In this document: positions 456 through 23,332 of the stretch, one piece after another
How positions within the stretch are numbered: position 1 is the stretch's first letter
Layout: each line of letters starts with the position of its first letter
Assembly: GCA_028748685.1 (NCBI GenBank)
Contig: JAJRDU010000141.1
Span: 1-39,498, forward strand
Direction: 5' to 3'
DNA length: 39,498 bases
Origin: Methylococcaceae bacterium
Lineage (GTDB): Bacteria; Pseudomonadota; Gammaproteobacteria; Methylococcales; Methylomonadaceae
Notes under the pieces: generated by a model
Databases searched by the model: none
What the model was told of the DNA's origin: nothing
Seen by the model: the letters and a program-made list of their open reading frames with translations, nothing else
Translations under genes and position numbers: made by a program

Positions 456-3400
456 ATGACACTTGAAAGAACCCGCGCCAAGTGCCTTTGCATCGATATC
501 GAAACCTCCCGTCAGGATAGCTTGAAGCTGCGGGAAATCGGTGCGTATCGGCCGGATACCGATGCCCGCTTGCGCGTATCTGGCAAAGCGGCCGATCTGC
601 TCAATAAACTGGATCAAATCAGTGAAGGAGCGACCTTTGTGTTGGGGCATAACGTGATTGCCTTCGACCAGCCAGCCTTGTCGCTATTGCATCCGGCTCT
701 GGCCCTGCATCGCTTGCCGATGGTGGATACGCTGGAACTGTCGCCGGTGGCGTTTCCGCAAAATCCTTATCACCGGCTGGTCAAGGATTACAAACTCTGC
801 ACGACCACCCGTAACGATCCGGTCCGCGATGCCGAGTTGGCTTACGAATTGTTTCTGGATCAGCGGGCGGCCTTGATCCAGCGAGTCGCCGAGCATCCCG
901 ATGAAGCGCTATGCCTGCATTTTTTACTGGCGCCGGAAAACGGCAAGGGCGTGGCGAATTTCTTTGCCACCTTGCGAGCCGCGTTGCGTCCGACCATGAG
1001 CGAAGTGCAAGCGGCCTGGCGGCGGGCTTCCGACGGCAAGGTGTGCCGCGCCGGACAACAAATCGTAAATGACTATTTTCCCGATCCGGAATGGCACAAG
1101 CCGCTAGCCTACGTGCTGGCCTGGCTGCGGGTGGCGGGCGGCAATTCGGTGTTGCCGCCCTGGGTGAGTTTGTCGTTCCCAAAAACTCGGGAGCTGATCG
1201 CGATCTTGCGCGATGTACCCTGCGGCGATGCCGATTGCGATTGGTGCCGGGAACAGCACGATCTGCTGCAATTGTTGCCGCGCTATTTCCCTGGTATTAG
1301 TCAGTTCAGGCCGTCACCGACCACTGACGACGGCAAGTCCTTGCAGCAAGTCATTGTAGAACACGGCTTTGCCGGTACGCCGACCCTAGCGATTCTACCG
1401 ACCGGCGGCGGCAAGTCCTTGTGTTATCAATTGCCGGCGCTGGCCCGCTTCTACCGCAACGGCAGCCTTACGGTGATTATTTCGCCGCTGCAATCCCTGA
1501 TGAAGGATCAGGTCGATAATCTGGAAGCGCGCGGCATCACCTGCGCCGGTTATATCAACAGTCTGCTGAATCCGCTGGAGCGGCGGGTGATGCTGGATAA
1601 GTTGCGGCTGGGCGATCTGGGTTTGATCTTTGTCGCGCCGGAACAATTTAGAAGCAGCGCTTTTGCCAATGCGTTGGCACACCGGGAAATCGGCGCCTGG
1701 ATATTCGACGAGGCGCATTGCCTGTCGAAATGGGGTCACGATTTTCGCCCGGACTACTTATATGTGTCGCGATTTATCAAGGCCCGGCAAAAGGACAAGC
1801 CGTCTCCGGTGTTCTGTTTTACCGCCACCGCCAAACCGGACGTGGTGCAAGACATAGGCGAGCATTTTCGCAAGCGCCTGAGCATTACGCTGGCGTGTTT
1901 GACCGGCGGCGTCAGCCGCGAGAATCTGCTGTACGAAGTGCATGCGGTGCCGGCTCAAGCCAAATATCCGGAAGTGCTGCGCTTGCTGGAGCACAGCTTG
2001 CGCGACGAGGGCGGCGCCATCGTGTTCTGCGCCCGGCAGAAAACCGTGGAGGAAACGGCCGAATTTTTGAAACAGGCGGGCCTGGATTGCGGCTATTTTC
2101 ACGGCGGCATGCAGCCCGAGCAAAAACGCCAGGTGCAGGAAGCCTTCATCGCCGGCGAGTTGCGGGTGATCGCCGCCACCAATGCCTTCGGCATGGGCGT
2201 GGACAAGGCCGACGTACGGCTGGTGATTCATCTGGATACGCCGGGCTCGCTGGAAAATTATTTGCAGGAAGCCGGCCGGGCCGGTCGTGATCAATACCCC
2301 GCGCGCTGCGTGTTGCTGTATGACGATGTCGATCTGGACGTGCAGTTCCGGCTGCTGCGTAATTCGCGACTGACGCAACACGATATTTACGCGATTTTAA
2401 AAGCTTTACGCAGCATCGAGCGCAAAGACCGCAGCGAAGGTTCGGTGGTGGTCACCAGCGGTGAAATCCTGCTGGAAATTCCGGACAAGCACGGCATCGA
2501 TCCGGACGCCGCCGATGCCGACACCAAGGTCCGCATCGCGGTGGCCTGGTTGGAAGAAGCGCGTTTGCTGGAGCGGCAGGAAAATCATACCCGCGTGTTT
2601 CCTGGCAGTTTGCAGGTTGCCAGTATCGATGAAGCCAGGGTCTTGCTGCAAAAAAAGCTGGGGCCGAATGCCGACATCGAACCTTACATCGCGTTGTTGT
2701 CGCAATTTTTTTACAGCGAAGACGACGAAGGCATCAGTACCGACGACTTGATGCTGGCCACCGGCCGCAATTCCCACGAAGTGCAGCAAATGTTGCGCGA
2801 GCTGGACCGCTTTAAACTGGTCTCCAACGATACCGAAATCGGCGTGACGCTGTACCGCGATCCCGACACGGTGGATAGGCTGGAAGACTTGCGCAAGTTG
2901 GAAGACGCGTTGATCGCCAGCCTGCGGGAGGCGGCGCCGGATGCCGATCAAGAGCAATGGCAAATCCTGAATGTGCGGCGCTTGTGCGATACCTTGCGCC
3001 GCGATGCCTGTGTCGATCTGACGCCGGACAAATTGACGCGCTTGATGAAATCGTTTGCCGAAGCCTTCGGTGACGGCAGCAGCCAGCGCGGGTTTTTCGC
3101 GTTGCGCCCGTTCGGCCAGGATAACCGCTATCTTAAATTGCTGCGGAGCTGGCAGTCGATTGAGGACATCCGCCACAAACGCATGCGGCTGGCTCAGGCC
3201 TTGGTGAATTTTTTTATAGTTCATCGCCAAGGCAACAATCTGCTGGTTACCTGCAAGCAAGGCGACTTGGAAGCGGCCTTGCAAGCCGATCTGACCCTGC
3301 AGGATCTGGATGTGCGCGACTGGAATGTGGCCTTGGCGGCGGCGCTGCTTTATCTGGATAGCAACGAAGTTTTACATCTGGCGCGCGGCAAGGCGGTGTT

Positions 3401-5597
3401 CCGCGCGGCGATGAGCATCCAGCTCAATGCCGAGGCTAGGCGCCGGCAATTCAAAAAATCCGATTACGCCGAACTGGCCTTGCATTACAAGGATAAGATC
3501 ATCCAGGTGCATGTGATGGCGGAATATGCCCGTTTGGCGCTGGGCAAGATTCAAGCGGCGATGGCGTTTATCGTCGATTACTTCGGCATGGACAGGCAAG
3601 AATTCGTGCGCCGCTACTTCGCCGGCCGCCAGGATATCCTGGAAATGGCTGCCACCGAAGCCGCGCACCGGCGCATCCTCACCGACCTGCAAAATCCCGA
3701 ACAACAAGCCATCGTCGCCGCGCCGCCCGAAGGCAGTCAGTTGGTGTTGGCTGGTCCCGGTTCCGGCAAGACCAAGGTCATCGTGCATAGGGTGGCCTGG
3801 TTGCTGCGGGAATGCATGGTGTTGCCGGAAGACATCATGGTGCTGAGCTATAATCGCTCGGCGGCCATCGAAATCCGCAAGCGTTTGTGGGCCTTGATCG
3901 GTGCCGACGCAGCCGGTGTGACGGTGCAAACCCTGCACGGTTTGGCGATGCGTTTGACCGGCACCAGTTATGCGGTGGCCGCCGAGCACGGCGAACAAGT
4001 CGATTTTTCCGCCGTTATCAAAAACGCCACCAATCTCTTGAAACAAGCGGAGCAGGGCGATGACGTTGGTCCGGGCATACAACGCGACCGCTTGCTGTCG
4101 GGCTTGCGCTTTCTACTGGTCGACGAATATCAGGACCTCAATGCCGAGCATTACGAGTTGATCAGCGCCTTGGCCGGGCGGTCGATCAACAGCGAGGAAG
4201 ATAAACTGTACTTGCTGGCGGTGGGCGATGACGATCAAAACATTTACGCCTTTGGTGGCGCGAACGTTCGCTTCATCAAACAGTTCGCCGATGACTATCA
4301 GGCCAAGACCTATTACCTGGTCGAAAACTACCGCTCCACGGCGCATATTATTCATTGCGCAAATCGCGTGGTAGCGTTGGCGCGGGAACGGATGAAAACC
4401 GAGCAGACCATCCAAATCAATTACGCCCGCCGCGATGCACCGGATGGCGGCGAATTTGCCGAACTGGATAGTTTGACTCAGGGCAGGGTGCATATCCTGG
4501 AAACGCCGGTGCGGCTCTATGGCGAAGTCGAGGTGGCGTTGGCCGAACTGATCCGTTTGAATCGGTTGGCAAACTCAGGCCAAATCAGCTATTGGGGCCG
4601 TTTCGCGGTGATCGCCAGGCATTGGGAAACGCTGGAGCCGATGGCGGCCTTGTGCCGGCTGAAGAGTATTCCGGTGCGTTTGATGCGTGATGACTATTTG
4701 TTGGATTTGCATGCCACGCGGGAAGGCTATGGCTTGCTTTCACTACTGAACAAGCAACGGCGAACGGCTCGCAAGCCACGGGTGTTGCTACGTTGGGGTT
4801 CATTATCGCGCTGGTTCAAAAGTCGCTACCGCCATAACTTGGACGACCTGATCGAACACCCGTACCAGGCCATGCTGGCGCAATTCATCATTGCCATCGA
4901 GTCCACCACGCCGGGTCCTCAGCACGTGGTCAGTAACGTCGTCGAAGCGCTTTACGAATTCGGTTCCGGCAGCCAGTCCGGTGAAAACGATAGCCGGCAT
5001 GCACCGTTGTTGTTATTGACGGCGCATAGAGCCAAGGGGCTGGAGTTTGATCATGTCCTGATCCTGGATGGCGGCGGTTGGCAGCAAGCCTTTGACGAGG
5101 AGCGGCGCCTGTACTACGTGGCGATGACCCGTGCCCGTAAAACTTTGACCTTGAGCGCCAGACGGGGCGGGCGCCATAGTTTCGTCCGCGACTGCGAAGA
5201 CCTTTGTCTTAAATCACAACCTAAAACCAGCAACGAATTTCAACAGCTAGGCCTACGCACTTGGGTGGCTAATTCCGCGCAAGTCGTGCTGTCATGGCCC
5301 GGATACTTCGCTGCGGATAAAGCTATTCATCGGGCAATTGCGCAGCTCGATGTTGGTAGTGAATTGATATTGCGTGCCAGGAGTGACGGGCAAACCGGCT
5401 GGGAGCTGGCTGATAAATTCGGCGTGGCGGTCACGCGGATGTCACTGGCCTTTGTAGCGCCGGAAGGCGAAATCATTAAAGTGAGAGTAGCGGCTATTCA
5501 CGCGCGGCAAAAGAAGTCTAGGGATTTGGACGCGCTGAGGTGCGAACATTGGGAAGTGGTTTTGCCGGAAATTTTATATCTGCCGGGAAACAGTTAG
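456..5597 (+). CDS. exonuclease-RecQ-UvrD fusion helicase
   Basis: A 1713-aa protein combines three nucleic-acid engines. Residues 1-160 form a DnaQ-like (DEDD) 3'-5' exonuclease: DIET at 14-17, HNVIAFD at 65-71 and Asp125 within NDPVRDAELAYELF. Residues about 256-268 carry C-x4-C-x2-C-x3-H, a possible zinc knuckle. A RecQ-type SF2 helicase follows: Walker A PTGGGKS with Lys320, DEAH at 418-421 and QEAGRAGRD at 604-612. Residues about 630-1070 match no domain I recognise. A UvrD/PcrA-type SF1 helicase completes the protein: AGPGSGKTK at 1099-1107, DEYQD at 1223-1227, GDDDQNIYAFGG, ENYRS, TAHRAKGLEFDHV and YVAMTRAR. The longer frame opens at 387, but ATG 456 puts the exonuclease motif at the usual distance from the N terminus. 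Ordinary RecQ is about 600 aa. The likely role is DNA repair, replication-fork processing or phage restriction. The substrate is unknown. Its 3' end overlaps the convergent nucleotidyltransferase gene by 24 bp. Confidence 0.9.
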   Translation: MTLERTRAKCLCIDIETSRQDSLKLREIGAYRPDTDARLRVSGKAADLLNKLDQISEGATFVLGHNVIAFDQPALSLLHPALALHRLPMVDTLELSPVAFPQNPYHRLVKDYKLCTTTRNDPVRDAELAYELFLDQRAALIQRVAEHPDEALCLHFLLAPENGKGVANFFATLRAALRPTMSEVQAAWRRASDGKVCRAGQQIVNDYFPDPEWHKPLAYVLAWLRVAGGNSVLPPWVSLSFPKTRELIAILRDVPCGDADCDWCREQHDLLQLLPRYFPGISQFRPSPTTDDGKSLQQVIVEHGFAGTPTLAILPTGGGKSLCYQLPALARFYRNGSLTVIISPLQSLMKDQVDNLEARGITCAGYINSLLNPLERRVMLDKLRLGDLGLIFVAPEQFRSSAFANALAHREIGAWIFDEAHCLSKWGHDFRPDYLYVSRFIKARQKDKPSPVFCFTATAKPDVVQDIGEHFRKRLSITLACLTGGVSRENLLYEVHAVPAQAKYPEVLRLLEHSLRDEGGAIVFCARQKTVEETAEFLKQAGLDCGYFHGGMQPEQKRQVQEAFIAGELRVIAATNAFGMGVDKADVRLVIHLDTPGSLENYLQEAGRAGRDQYPARCVLLYDDVDLDVQFRLLRNSRLTQHDIYAILKALRSIERKDRSEGSVVVTSGEILLEIPDKHGIDPDAADADTKVRIAVAWLEEARLLERQENHTRVFPGSLQVASIDEARVLLQKKLGPNADIEPYIALLSQFFYSEDDEGISTDDLMLATGRNSHEVQQMLRELDRFKLVSNDTEIGVTLYRDPDTVDRLEDLRKLEDALIASLREAAPDADQEQWQILNVRRLCDTLRRDACVDLTPDKLTRLMKSFAEAFGDGSSQRGFFALRPFGQDNRYLKLLRSWQSIEDIRHKRMRLAQALVNFFIVHRQGNNLLVTCKQGDLEAALQADLTLQDLDVRDWNVALAAALLYLDSNEVLHLARGKAVFRAAMSIQLNAEARRRQFKKSDYAELALHYKDKIIQVHVMAEYARLALGKIQAAMAFIVDYFGMDRQEFVRRYFAGRQDILEMAATEAAHRRILTDLQNPEQQAIVAAPPEGSQLVLAGPGSGKTKVIVHRVAWLLRECMVLPEDIMVLSYNRSAAIEIRKRLWALIGADAAGVTVQTLHGLAMRLTGTSYAVAAEHGEQVDFSAVIKNATNLLKQAEQGDDVGPGIQRDRLLSGLRFLLVDEYQDLNAEHYELISALAGRSINSEEDKLYLLAVGDDDQNIYAFGGANVRFIKQFADDYQAKTYYLVENYRSTAHIIHCANRVVALARERMKTEQTIQINYARRDAPDGGEFAELDSLTQGRVHILETPVRLYGEVEVALAELIRLNRLANSGQISYWGRFAVIARHWETLEPMAALCRLKSIPVRLMRDDYLLDLHATREGYGLLSLLNKQRRTARKPRVLLRWGSLSRWFKSRYRHNLDDLIEHPYQAMLAQFIIAIESTTPGPQHVVSNVVEALYEFGSGSQSGENDSRHAPLLLLTAHRAKGLEFDHVLILDGGGWQQAFDEERRLYYVAMTRARKTLTLSARRGGRHSFVRDCEDLCLKSQPKTSNEFQQLGLRTWVANSAQVVLSWPGYFAADKAIHRAIAQLDVGSELILRARSDGQTGWELADKFGVAVTRMSLAFVAPEGEIIKVRVAAIHARQKKSRDLDALRCEHWEVVLPEILYLPGNS

Positions 5598-17275: not shown

Positions 17276-19339
17276 CTAAATCTTGGCCAGCAACATCGCG
17301 ATGGACCTGGACTGAGCGTAATATCTATGTCCCTTTATCCCAACGGCGCATTCCGCTTCGACGCAATCTTCCGGAGACGGTAAAGCCGTGTCGATAACCC
17401 GTGCCCAGCTCAATCGGGATTTCTGAAACCGTTCGGGAAGCTCAAATTCCAGAGGCTCCCAATAACTGTTGAAGATGAAATAGATCACATACGGGCGCTG
17501 TAGCTTGGCGATCAGAATAGCCAGACTGTGCGAGTCCTCACCCCAATCCGGTTGATTTAGTTTGGTACCGTGATATTCGATATGCAGTTGCTGAAAAAAC
17601 AGGTTGAGCGTGGCCGACGATTCCTTCCAGGTATATAACAAGCCGCGCAGGTGTATCAGCAGCTTGACGAAGCGATGGATGTCGGCGTGTTTGTCCAGCA
17701 GCGACCAGTCGAACCAGCTGAGTTCGCTGTCCTGGCAATAAGCGTTGTTATTGCCCAATTGCGTGCGGCAGGCTTCGTCGCCCATGGCTAGCATCGGTGT
17801 GCCTGCGGACATTAAGGTCAGGGTCAGAAAATTTTTGATTTGGCGCCGCCGCAATGCGTTGATACTAGGGTCGTCCGTAGGTCCTTCCACGCCGCAGTTC
17901 CAGCTGTAGTTGTTGTCGCAGCCATCGCGGTTGTATTCGCGGTTGGCTTCGTTGCGTTTGGCGTTGTAAGACACGAGATCATTCAGCGTGAAACCGTCGT
18001 GACAGGTGATGAAATTGACGCTGGTTTCCGGATCGCGCCGTTGATCGGCGTATAGGTCCGGACTGGCGAACAAGCGGTTGGGCAATTTGGCTATGCTGCC
18101 TGGGTCTGCGCGCAGAAACGAACGGATGTCGTCGCGGAACTGGCCGTTCCACTCTTTCCAGAAATCGCCGATGAAACTGCCGACCTGATACAGGCCCGCC
18201 GCATCCCAGGCTTCGGCGATCAGTTTGCTACCCGACAACACCGGATCGGTTTCGATGTCCCATAGAATCGGCGGATTGGGAAACGGCCGTCCCTCTTCGT
18301 CACGCGACAGGATGGACGCCAAATCGAAGCGGAAACCGTCCACGTGCATTTCGGTAACCCAGTAACGCAGGCTGTCCAGGATCAAGCGCCGAACCACCGA
18401 GTGATTGGCTTTCAGTGTGTTGCCGGTGCCGGCGTAATTGGTATAAGTGCCGTTTTGCGGATCGAGGATGTAATAGACATCGTTGGCCAAGCCCTTGAAA
18501 CAGAACATGGGGCCTCTTTGGTCGCCTTCGGCGGTATGGTTGAACACCACGTCGAGAATAACTTCGATGCCGGCACGGTGTAGGGCTTTGACCATGTCCC
18601 GGAATTCCGCGATCGTACCCAATGGCGAGGGATCGGAACTGTAGCCGCTGTGCGGGGCGAAAAACGTCACGGGCGAATAGCCCCAGTAATTGGCCAGACC
18701 CGGCGGCGAGTCTTGTGGATCGAATTGAAAGACCGGCAACAGTTCCACGGCCGTGACGCCCAGATCTTTCAGATAGGGGATTTTTTCGATGACGCCGGCG
18801 TAAGTGCCTCGCTTGTGTTCGGTCACGCCGGATTGTGGGTGCCGGGTAAAGCCGCGCACATGCATCTCGTAGATCACCGTGCCTCGAAACGGCTTCCTGA
18901 GCGGCATGTCGCCTTCCCAGTTGTAGCCGCGATAATCGACCACCACGCTCTTCATCGCCGAACCCAGATTGGCTCCAGGCCGGCAGGCGGCCTTCCGATC
19001 ATAATTCGGACCGATCGCAAGGCCGCGAGCATAAGGATCCAGCAACAGTTTGTCGGGATCGAAGCGTAAACCGTGTTCCGGGCTGCAAGGTCCGTTGACT
19101 CGATAGCCGTATAATTGCCCGGCCTTCACATCGGGGGCGTAAATATGCCAGTAATGGAAGGTGCGGTTACGCAAAGGGTCAAGTGGAATCACACGGCTGG
19201 GCTGGTCGTGATCGATGTCGTCAAACATCAGTAACTCCACGGACGTGGCGTTTTTGGCGTAAACGCTGAAATTGGCGCCGCCTGGGCGCAAGGTAGAGCC
19301 TAAAGGGAAAGAACTTCCGGATGCAATCTTGCTGTTCAT
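17276..19339 (-). CDS. glgX: glycogen debranching enzyme (GlgX, isoamylase type)
   Basis: A 687-aa glycoside hydrolase family 13 enzyme that removes alpha-1,6 branches during glycogen breakdown in the cytoplasm. Residues about 10-110 form the N-terminal CBM48-like domain (FPLGSTLRPGGANFSVYA). The catalytic barrel shows VILDVVFNHT (260-269), DGFRFDLAS with nucleophile Asp339, EAWD with acid/base Glu376, and FITCHDG with His447 and Asp448. Length and motif order are normal for GlgX. ATG 19339 is taken because the CBM48 start lies directly behind it. No other glycogen genes are adjacent, so it stands alone here. GlgX and TreX are closely related, and substrate preference cannot be told apart from sequence alone. 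Confidence 0.93.
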   Translation of the reverse strand: MNSKIASGSSFPLGSTLRPGGANFSVYAKNATSVELLMFDDIDHDQPSRVIPLDPLRNRTFHYWHIYAPDVKAGQLYGYRVNGPCSPEHGLRFDPDKLLLDPYARGLAIGPNYDRKAACRPGANLGSAMKSVVVDYRGYNWEGDMPLRKPFRGTVIYEMHVRGFTRHPQSGVTEHKRGTYAGVIEKIPYLKDLGVTAVELLPVFQFDPQDSPPGLANYWGYSPVTFFAPHSGYSSDPSPLGTIAEFRDMVKALHRAGIEVILDVVFNHTAEGDQRGPMFCFKGLANDVYYILDPQNGTYTNYAGTGNTLKANHSVVRRLILDSLRYWVTEMHVDGFRFDLASILSRDEEGRPFPNPPILWDIETDPVLSGSKLIAEAWDAAGLYQVGSFIGDFWKEWNGQFRDDIRSFLRADPGSIAKLPNRLFASPDLYADQRRDPETSVNFITCHDGFTLNDLVSYNAKRNEANREYNRDGCDNNYSWNCGVEGPTDDPSINALRRRQIKNFLTLTLMSAGTPMLAMGDEACRTQLGNNNAYCQDSELSWFDWSLLDKHADIHRFVKLLIHLRGLLYTWKESSATLNLFFQQLHIEYHGTKLNQPDWGEDSHSLAILIAKLQRPYVIYFIFNSYWEPLEFELPERFQKSRLSWARVIDTALPSPEDCVEAECAVGIKGHRYYAQSRSIAMLLAKI

Positions 19340-21572: not shown

Positions 21573-22862
21573 CTACATATTTGGATCCCATTGATCTACA
21601 GCTATTGCTGTACATTCAGCGACGAGCAGATCGAGTACTGACTCGATCTTACTAACGTCATACACACCTTCGGCCAAAGTTACAGAAGTTTGCTTCAAGA
21701 ATTCCTTGCTATAGGACTCCTTGTATTCGAGCGCCCCCTGATAGGTGTCTAAGCTTTTTTTGTAGTTGGTCCAGAGCACTTTAGCTGGTGGGTGGCCGCC
21801 GACCTTGAGGTCGAGATAGCACTCAATTGCCGCCGCGCGCCGGTTTATATCCGAGTCGCGGAGTCCCTCGGGTCCTTGCGCCGGAAATTGGCGGAATTCC
21901 TCGAGCTCGGGCAACATGATCCCACGCATGTTCGCTGGCATAGTGAGCGTAGACAGACGCTGATGGGCGTCGAGCCCCTCAGCGTCATTGTCAAATACAA
22001 AAATCACCTGGTTCTGGACGTCTATCTTAGTGAGCCCTTCAGCGAACTTAACTAGGCTGCCTGTACCCGAAAATGGATGGCTTTCGCTAACGTCGATGAA
22101 GCGAAAAAAATCCGCGATCCCAGGCCGCAGCAGCGCGAGCGCATGTTTTAAGATATGGACGTCCGAGCTGCCTTCGGTAGCGATCAGGAATGTCTCGGTT
22201 CGCCGGGCGTGAGGCACGAACTCCCTCTCTGTCGCCCACCCAGCCTCCACCAACGGCCCATATTGCCAAACAACAGGAGCGTCCTCGTTCGCCTCCGCCA
22301 AGACGCGCAGGACCGAATACGGGTGAATGATACCTACCAACCCGCCGAAAAAGCTTCGCTCCGAATATGCGTCGTTGTCATAAGAACGGTAGGCGGGAAT
22401 TCGCTCAAACTGCATTCCATCAAATCGCCCTCGGATCATCTTTTCGCTTGCGCTGTCCGTACCCAAGATAAAGGTGTCGTCGAGACTATCGAGCGGGTGT
22501 GAGGTAACAAATTTGCAAAACTCCGCAAAGCTCATCAGGTCAGGAATGGGCTCATCATCTTGAAAAGACTGCCTCTCATCTAGCCAGCCTTTCGCGACGG
22601 CATCATATTCTCGGCGGACGCGTTCCAGATTGAAGCCTAGCAGTTCGAGGCGCGGAGCTACATGCTTAAGCGGACGTATGAAAGCCATCTCGGAAAGAGT
22701 TGGGTCTTCACCATTCTCTCGATACCAATCGTAGTTGAGCTGGTTGCTTTCTATCGCTTTTCGATCTTTTTCCTGAAAAATAGAGCCATGATCAATTCCA
22801 CGATGGTTCTTGCTGTACGTGACCGATACCCCGGCCACATCGAGCGTGATTTCTGTACCCAC
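21573..22862 (-). CDS. HEPN/Toprim-type protein, putative defence gene
   Basis: A 429-aa protein. The N terminus (LDVAGVSVTYSKN, then GSIFQEKDR) resembles the HEPN/Toprim-associated N-terminal domain. Residues about 225-310 form a Toprim fold: Glu230 in FLIATEGSSD and Asp291-Asn-Asp293 in FVFDNDAEG, the acidic metal-binding set of topoisomerase/primase and OLD-type nucleases. The last 100 residues are charged and helical. The open frame extends to 23045, but GTG 22862 has an AGGGG site six bases ahead and begins exactly at the conserved domain start, so I choose it. HEPN and Toprim proteins are repeatedly linked to bacterial conflict systems. The activity here is inferred. It stands alone with no partner, flanked by dyad sequences. 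An OLD-like nuclease is the main alternative. Confidence 0.75.
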   Translation of the reverse strand: MGTEITLDVAGVSVTYSKNHRGIDHGSIFQEKDRKAIESNQLNYDWYRENGEDPTLSEMAFIRPLKHVAPRLELLGFNLERVRREYDAVAKGWLDERQSFQDDEPIPDLMSFAEFCKFVTSHPLDSLDDTFILGTDSASEKMIRGRFDGMQFERIPAYRSYDNDAYSERSFFGGLVGIIHPYSVLRVLAEANEDAPVVWQYGPLVEAGWATEREFVPHARRTETFLIATEGSSDVHILKHALALLRPGIADFFRFIDVSESHPFSGTGSLVKFAEGLTKIDVQNQVIFVFDNDAEGLDAHQRLSTLTMPANMRGIMLPELEEFRQFPAQGPEGLRDSDINRRAAAIECYLDLKVGGHPPAKVLWTNYKKSLDTYQGALEYKESYSKEFLKQTSVTLAEGVYDVSKIESVLDLLVAECTAIAVDQWDPNM

Positions 22863-23332
22863 GTTTTCCCCTGTCCGTAAATAGAAGGCCTCAGCTGCGC
22901 CGCCCATACTCCAGTGGATGGCGGCTGAAATAATGACCGGTAATAGCCTGATCGCCGCCATTGAATCAGTTCGTGCGACAGACCGCAACGGGTCGAATTC
23001 ACACTGCAAAAATCCGACTAAAATCCTGCCAATGCCAGAATTCACTTCGTTCTACGCAACCAATCAATAACCGCTTAGAGCCAAGCTTCAACTAACACGT
23101 TTCTCAACACCATTCTCTTACCCCGTCAAACTCTCCGCGAACTGTTGTCCAGGCAACAGTGCTCGGACAGGTGTTGCTGTCTCCGGTGCAATGTATGGCG
23201 ACCTCGAAAAGAAAACACCAGAAAATACAAAAACATATCTTCTGGCATAAAGCCTGCTTATTCAAATTCAAATTTGAATTTCCAATTTCAATTACGCCGA
23301 TCAACCCAAAAGCTTCTTAAAGCCACGGAAAC
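22863..23332. other. divergent intergenic region between the HEPN/Toprim gene and tetR
   Basis: A 470-bp gap. The in-frame upstream extension of the HEPN/Toprim gene (22863-23045) lacks a ribosome site and resembles no protein. The half near the regulator gene is AT-rich and contains the 18-bp palindrome at 23264-23281. Short frames at 23104-23304 and 23145-23336 are not credible genes. Confidence 0.4.
23264..23281. promoter_or_regulatory. 18-bp perfect palindrome, candidate TetR-family operator
   Basis: The sequence AAATTCAAATTTGAATTT is identical to its reverse complement. Its centre lies 60 bp before the start of the TetR-family gene that heads the mdtABC-type operon. TetR-family repressors usually bind such dyads next to their own promoter, so autoregulation and control of the pump are the natural reading. 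This is inferred from position and symmetry only. Confidence 0.6.

Follow-up and report, generated by a model that had tools for sequence, protein, structure and literature searches.

What does a single polypeptide do that joins two helicase motors of different superfamilies behind an exonuclease-like domain? The question is raised by the gene at the start of a 39,498-nucleotide stretch from a Methylococcaceae bacterium (contig JAJRDU010000141.1), which as a whole is called the window here. A single open frame spans 387/456-5597 on the forward strand and yields 1713 amino acids from the ATG at 456. The close relatives listed start at about this ATG; from the ATG at 387, the protein would be 23 residues longer. 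Conservation is given for a family alignment of 75 rows, composed of the window protein and 74 dereplicated homologues. Near-identical rows and the locus L001, which is the window, were left out of it, together with nine partial matches, of which seven were focal copies that are cut or split and two were relatives with a single motor. The following features were assigned:

456..5597, forward: coding sequence, 1713 aa (open frame; start backed by homologues; domain matches and models)
456..893, forward: DEDD-exonuclease-fold domain, residues 1-146 (family profile, hhalign, weak RNase_T match, secondary structure of the model)
495..503, forward: Exo I motif D14-x-E16 (each residue in 73/75 rows)
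648..668, forward: Exo II motif H65-N66....D71 (73, 73 and 74 of 75 rows)
813..830, forward: Exo III motif N120-x-P-x-x-D125 (N120, P122 and D125 each in 74/75 rows)
894..1304, forward: all-helical linker, residues 147-283, with C197, C256, C261 and C264 (alignment, model)
1305..2375, forward: RecQ SF2 motor, residues 284-640 (Pfam, NCBIfam, model)
1395..1418, forward: RecQ Walker A LPTGGGKS, residues 314-321 (T316, G317, G319 and K320 in 75/75 rows)
2376..3680, forward: middle region, residues 641-1075, repeated helices and strand pairs followed by a helical neck (model)
3681..5240, forward: UvrD SF1 motor, residues 1076-1595 (Pfam, model)
3750..3773, forward: UvrD Walker A AGPGSGKT, residues 1099-1106 (A1099, G1100, P1101, G1102, G1104 and K1105 in 75/75 rows)
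5358..5582, forward: C-terminal five-strand domain, residues 1635-1709 (model)

Along the chain, the exonuclease-fold domain is followed by the four-cysteine helical linker, the RecQ motor, a winged-helix-like array, the UvrD motor and the C-terminal five-strand domain. The earlier note on this DNA had claimed a RecQ SF2 and a UvrD SF1 motor in one frame with all Walker residues intact, and both statements were borne out. In the Pfam search of the 1713-aa protein, the RecQ part was matched by DEAD (residues 296-466, E 5e-26) and Helicase_C (507-612, 4e-24) and the UvrD part by UvrD-helicase (from residue 1080, 8e-41) and UvrD_C (1513-1569, 2e-16). The profile check of each segment proposed in that note therefore succeeded for the two motors, while RNase_T/DEDD stayed below the Pfam thresholds in the window protein. 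The ATPase residues K320, D418 and E419 of RecQ and K1105, D1223 and E1224 of UvrD were invariant in 75/75 rows, as were the motif VI arginines R608 and R611, and R1559 was present in 73/75. Accordingly, the RecQ part showed the helicase motifs and fold of its family, and UvrD motifs and a UvrD fold were found by Pfam, the alignment and the structure search of the model. The comparison with NCBIfam cut-offs sets the fusion apart from bacterial RecQ and from UvrD/PcrA/Rep. While the RecQ family model TIGR00614 was passed (292.9 vs 219.8 bits), the RecQ equivalog TIGR01389 was not reached (332.5 vs 640.2 bits), and the scores for the uvrD/pcrA/rep equivalogs lay far under their cut-offs (169.2 of 965, 158.2 of 1144.45, 157.1 of 911.2 and 147.3 of 951.45 bits). 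These scores indicate motors of the RecQ and UvrD families that are not the housekeeping enzymes.

A scan of genome contigs gave 79 loci from the best 80 of 143 relatives, including Methylomonas, Pseudomonas, Thauera, Nitrosomonas, Desulfoluna and Kiritimatiellales. Since the architecture is kept in groups as far apart as Gammaproteobacteria, Desulfobacteria and Kiritimatiellia, and also on plasmids of cyanobacteria and Deinococcus, chance can be ruled out for the fusion. Compared to the close relative L029, dN/dS was 0.093 overall and 0.068-0.102 by domain, and three further pairs showed 0.058-0.084 overall, with synonymous sites saturated in places. Judged by these ratios, the fusion gene is under purifying selection. 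It is a new combination of known kinds of parts, for which no description was found in the open-licence PMC literature (subscription papers and preprint servers lie outside this scope).

Three more distant proteins were observed beside the family. On a plasmid of Rhodobacter sp. CZR27 (L118:7042-14443), three consecutive genes encode a protein bearing a weak cold-shock domain, a small protein and a distant RecQ-UvrD protein of 1774 aa, which lacks both the exonuclease motifs and the four cysteines. The second and third genes share 4 bases, and the set may represent a multi-gene variant in its own right. A Sphaerotilus plasmid (L113:9809-11863) carries, in metabolic context, a 684-aa stand-alone UvrD-type helicase which matches fusion residues 1059-1707 at 35%, the C-terminal domain included, and may be a relative of whatever gave rise to the UvrD half. 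A 1788-aa frame from another family of the order (G047:C50:4250-7549) matches RecQ (310-705) and UvrD (1072-1357) at 30-34% and is perhaps a distant family member.

For the N-terminal domain, the earlier note had claimed DEDD exonuclease motifs, and this holds for the four acids only. A profile of 41 N-termini matched solved DEDD exonucleases with a best E of 6.9e-5, among them DinG (8zef, 0.0043) and Cas2-DEDDh (0.038), and a weak Pfam match to RNase_T was obtained for 11/41 family members (best 0.0072). Profile-profile comparison by hhalign with three RNase_T-family (DEDDh) proteins of the window's own genome gave a probability of 91.7 and an E of 7.9e-7; the same comparison for two other regions of the fusion protein showed short alignments in the portion of the output examined. 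The order of strands and helices in the predicted model is that of the DEDD exonuclease fold. D14, E16, D71 and D125 are jointly kept in 73/75 rows, 72 of them with N120 and one with alanine. The exceptions are L118, in which the exonuclease motifs other than the asparagine are gone, and L096, which is truncated where its contig ends.

The fifth catalytic position is different. The general base of DEDD enzymes is a histidine in the DEDDh type and a tyrosine in the DEDDy type. In the 75-row alignment, no histidine occurs five residues before the last aspartate, where residue 120 is asparagine in 74 rows and alanine in one (L078), and no tyrosine occurs four residues before it, position 121 being D/S/N/G in 40/21/13/1 rows. 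The hhalign alignment likewise places the histidine of HGALLDA in the host DEDDh protein on N120 of NDPVRDA. No paper on asparagine in DEDD enzymes was found in open-licence PMC. Since asparagine occupies this position in 74/75 rows, nuclease activity cannot be assumed. The dN/dS of 0.086 for this domain compared to L029 indicates at the same time that it is not a decaying remnant. Altogether, the alignment supports a DEDD fold with its metal ligands and leaves nuclease activity doubtful.

These observations bear on a reading in which the exonuclease domain has little or no catalytic activity and serves as a 3'-end sensor gating the two motors, so that the protein purely unwinds or translocates. 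The asparagine in place of histidine, together with the four acids and the family-specific H106, K110 and P122, would suit a binding site kept by selection. However, all four metal-binding acids are kept, as an active two-metal enzyme requires, and the family may use another base, since H106, K110 and Y112 are near-invariant. We regard such a sensor, which is compatible with our main reading given below, as quite possible without favouring it.

Between this domain and RecQ, residues 147-283 are helical in the predicted model. C197, C256, C261 and C264 are all present in 70/75 rows, and the other five rows never show the full set (none in L115, L116, L118 and L120, one in L112). Since the four cysteines vanish as a set, they probably form a metal site holding either zinc or an Fe-S cluster, two options that sequence does not distinguish.

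The region of about 440 residues between the motors had been described in the earlier note as matching no known domain. Pfam indeed gives no significant match for residues 641-1075, but in the model the region looks like tandem winged helices, and a DtxR-type winged-helix match (E 0.0028) lies at about residues 745-824. The alignments for the structure models comprised the window and genome-contig loci only, without L118 (56/74 and 55/73 rows eligible). A profile of the C-terminal domain found no credible solved relative, and the match lists of the structure searches were filled by the motors.

The same note had proposed a self-contained RecBCD- or WRN-like machine. The likeness to WRN stands as far as the domain order is concerned, since Pfam, hhalign and the model agree on an N-terminal exonuclease fold followed by RecQ in one chain. 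In WRN, the exonuclease is of the DEDDy type, and RQC and HRDC come after the motor. The fusion differs by the asparagine at the general-base position, the four-cysteine helical region between exonuclease and motor, and the UvrD motor after RecQ; an HRDC match was absent from the window protein in Pfam at E 0.1, a search that distant versions could escape. In the structure search, the first model matched best the helicase cores of BLM, RECQL5, Deinococcus RecQ and WRN, with 33-35% identity to the E. coli and Deinococcus RecQ cores across the residues aligned. Together with the domain order, this would fit a bacterial WRN-like accessory enzyme of replication-fork or recombination repair. Such an enzyme would remodel forks that have stalled, trim 3' ends and travel on mobile DNA because it aids the replication of its carrier. 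The separate RecQ-type (C236) and UvrD-type (C267) matches in the window's genome, and likewise in the relatives listed, speak against such a repair enzyme, on which the genomic context discussed below also bears.

RecBCD likeness is doubtful. In contrast to RecBCD/AddAB, the fusion is one polypeptide with one motor of SF2, and no constant partner gene was found among the clustered neighbours of 99 focal loci (flanks of 1.5-10 kb). Helicases of the RecQ and the UvrD family move 3'-5', and two motors of like polarity cannot travel on the opposite strands of a duplex while heading for one end of it. This polarity casts doubt on a bipolar RecBCD-like machine, and Pfam found no RecB-type PD-(D/E)XK nuclease in the fusion, although divergent versions could escape it.

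DinG resembles the fusion in that a DEDD exonuclease is joined to an SF2 helicase, and it is not known to carry an SF1 motor. The DinG motor is described as XPD-like, which differs from the RecQ of the fusion, and B. subtilis DinG is described as degrading linear single-stranded DNA 3'-5' (PMC12525004). Among known defence systems, the helicase cores of Gabija GajB, PsyrT and DpdF match the fusion with one motor each. Within the best 25 of 87 rows of PADLOC 2.0, neither these nor others showed the architecture of the fusion, and no full-length match to a system protein occurred, the matches covering helicase cores only.

The distribution of the gene is uneven. With full-length relatives taken at E up to 1e-150, the gene is present in 9/369 genomes of the class and 23/37 of the genus, the window's own genome being counted in both. 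The genus holds two lineages of the fusion gene, about 43% identical and apart in the tree (FastTree, no bootstrap). The window's lineage occupies eight different sites: the window, G017, beside gatB (nine genomes), G002/G012, G007, G005/L051, G026 and G015. For the other lineage, the left flank (rpe side) is common to three genomes, while the right flanks differ. gatB itself is present in 37/37 genus genomes. Ten other genomes read lack the fusion gene over 20 kb on the corresponding flank of gatB, as does the window's own genome over the 7.2 kb available there. Copies in G036, G030, G362 and G012 carry an in-frame stop or a split frame, which, if these are not sequencing errors, indicates that the gene is dispensable. 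That homologues might always sit in housekeeping repair loci, a possibility raised at the outset, does not apply, since the sites vary and include plasmids. Altogether, these genomic data support the view that the fusion gene is accessory, mobile and patchy, and a distribution that varies by site in this way is not what a fork-repair enzyme would suggest.

Since 21 of 72,556 plasmid records match at a coverage of at least 80%, a plasmid or conjugation helper has to be considered, which would convert incoming single-stranded DNA or resolve plasmid replication intermediates. Among the 14 records read, which name the gene by RecQ- or UvrD-type names only, two are typed conjugative (Nostoc pC052_A and Scytonema plasmid1) and two mobilizable. 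However, the remaining 10/14 are typed non-mobilizable (L113 and L117 not being intact fusions), and in the finished relatives the copies are found on contigs of 1.5-5.5 Mb. We consider such a helper improbable. Two copies, on Aliarcobacter pACIB and Deinococcus p96k, adjoin plasmid partition or replication genes, which would also be in line with a repair enzyme assisting its carrier. Of 104 phage records matched, none reached 80% coverage, and 15 rows listed match the RecQ part. In E. coli, megablast with the DNA of the Pseudocitrobacter copy found nothing, distant relatives being beyond its reach.

The neighbourhoods were compared for a link to defence. The proposed survey of homologues revealed defence genes at some loci, but 60/69 loci were without marker genes and no neighbour was constant, the biggest non-focal cluster occurring at 15/99 loci and the next ones, in loci of the own genus, at 14 and 11. 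At the gatB site, the block behind the fusion gene varies in its type I restriction genes: G011 and G013 share a type of HsdR, G025 has a second, still distantly similar type, and G023 lacks HsdR. HSDR_N was found within about 10 kb in 8/33 genomes (G031, G006, G017, G013, G011, G028, G036 and G025) compared to a chance expectation of about 0.8, estimated from 140 matches in these 33 genomes, with the eight cases representing only about three independent arrangements and broken contigs hiding some distances. Furthermore, HsdM and HsdR lie downstream of the fusion gene in L080, and the Mokosh genes MkoA and MkoB (L065), the Zac gene ZacC (L057) and PDC-S36 (L084) near it; clusters homologous to MkoA/MkoB are common to L057 and L100.

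Marker genes were present at 9/69 loci (1.09 Mb of flank) compared to 1/20 control regions (0.40 Mb), the markers having been picked from the focal loci and some of the 69 loci having short flanks. In PADLOC, 134 neighbours of 39 loci (from 234 eligible at 69 loci) hit 228 models and 126 control genes hit 46, a count that is inflated by redundant methylase models and that compares a wider test set with controls from 19 of 20 random regions in the window's genus and family only. The neighbour counts cover 25 families matched by most members, and the counts of member proteins are lower bounds. Among the same neighbours, Pfam matches ranged from restriction, HipA, Fic and integrase families to ones that are clearly metabolic. 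The excess of defence markers near the fusion gene is therefore weak, and a defence role is plausible as far as gene context can tell. For fork repair, the restriction-modification neighbours at some loci are unfavourable, as is the occurrence of the LexA-box consensus CTGT-N8-ACAG in only 1/102 upstream regions (350 bp). Weighing both sides, we regard an accessory repair enzyme as possible and rather unlikely.

In the window, the contig ends upstream of the fusion gene, and the downstream flank, as scanned to 23977, is metabolic (XdhC, molybdenum hydroxylase, chromate transporter, RND pump). The reverse-strand gene at 21573-23045 encodes 490 aa, in which Pfam recognised HEPN_Toprim_N (E 9e-79) and PADLOC gave no match at 1e-5; it is possibly a defence gene among otherwise metabolic neighbours. 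An isoamylase-type gene (17276-19339, reverse strand) has a homologue right behind the fusion gene of the other lineage in G009 (L135:13266-15326), and this proximity to both lineages may be a coincidence. In most genomes with the gatB site, two genes (L128:4910-7081 and equivalents) lie upstream of the fusion gene, encoding 390 aa (MCP-signal, HAMP and a weak ZorA match) and 326 aa (NIT-like). This pair is located between the fusion gene and the restriction genes where the latter are present.

Altogether, our main reading, to which we assign a probability of roughly 45%, is a stand-alone, horizontally moving accessory DNA-processing machine whose main benefit, judged from its context, would be the clearing or blocking of foreign replicating DNA alongside restriction-modification. 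Each motor would engage single-stranded DNA and move 3'-5', the two acting either one behind the other on a single strand or on separate arms of branched DNA. Instead of tracking both strands of a duplex in the manner of RecBCD, they would pull apart branched or ended DNA such as a fork, a D-loop, or a recombination or plasmid/phage replication intermediate. Such a substrate is favoured by the putative winged helices between the motors and the 3'-end-handling domain in front, and would be formed by replicating plasmids, phages and stalled forks. The winged helices would hold the duplex, while the N-terminal domain would engage the 3' end and either trim it with its altered (Asn) active site or sense it, and the four cysteines may hold a metal.

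A bolder version appears unlikely to us, namely a widespread undescribed single-gene immune machine of RecQ and UvrD helicases that dismantles phage and plasmid replication intermediates without a partner protein, under the control of the four-cysteine metal site and with an Asn-type DEDD site as a further kind beside DEDDh and DEDDy. The Asn-type site itself poses a biochemical question, which is whether a DEDD fold can cut without its histidine or tyrosine. For the family, the finding means that two-motor helicases with an exonuclease-like domain have been kept across several phyla while bearing plain RecQ- or UvrD-type names, as in the plasmid records. Should the fusion turn out to target foreign DNA, a single gene would make up the whole system, and its one polypeptide would depend on two motors from separate superfamilies.
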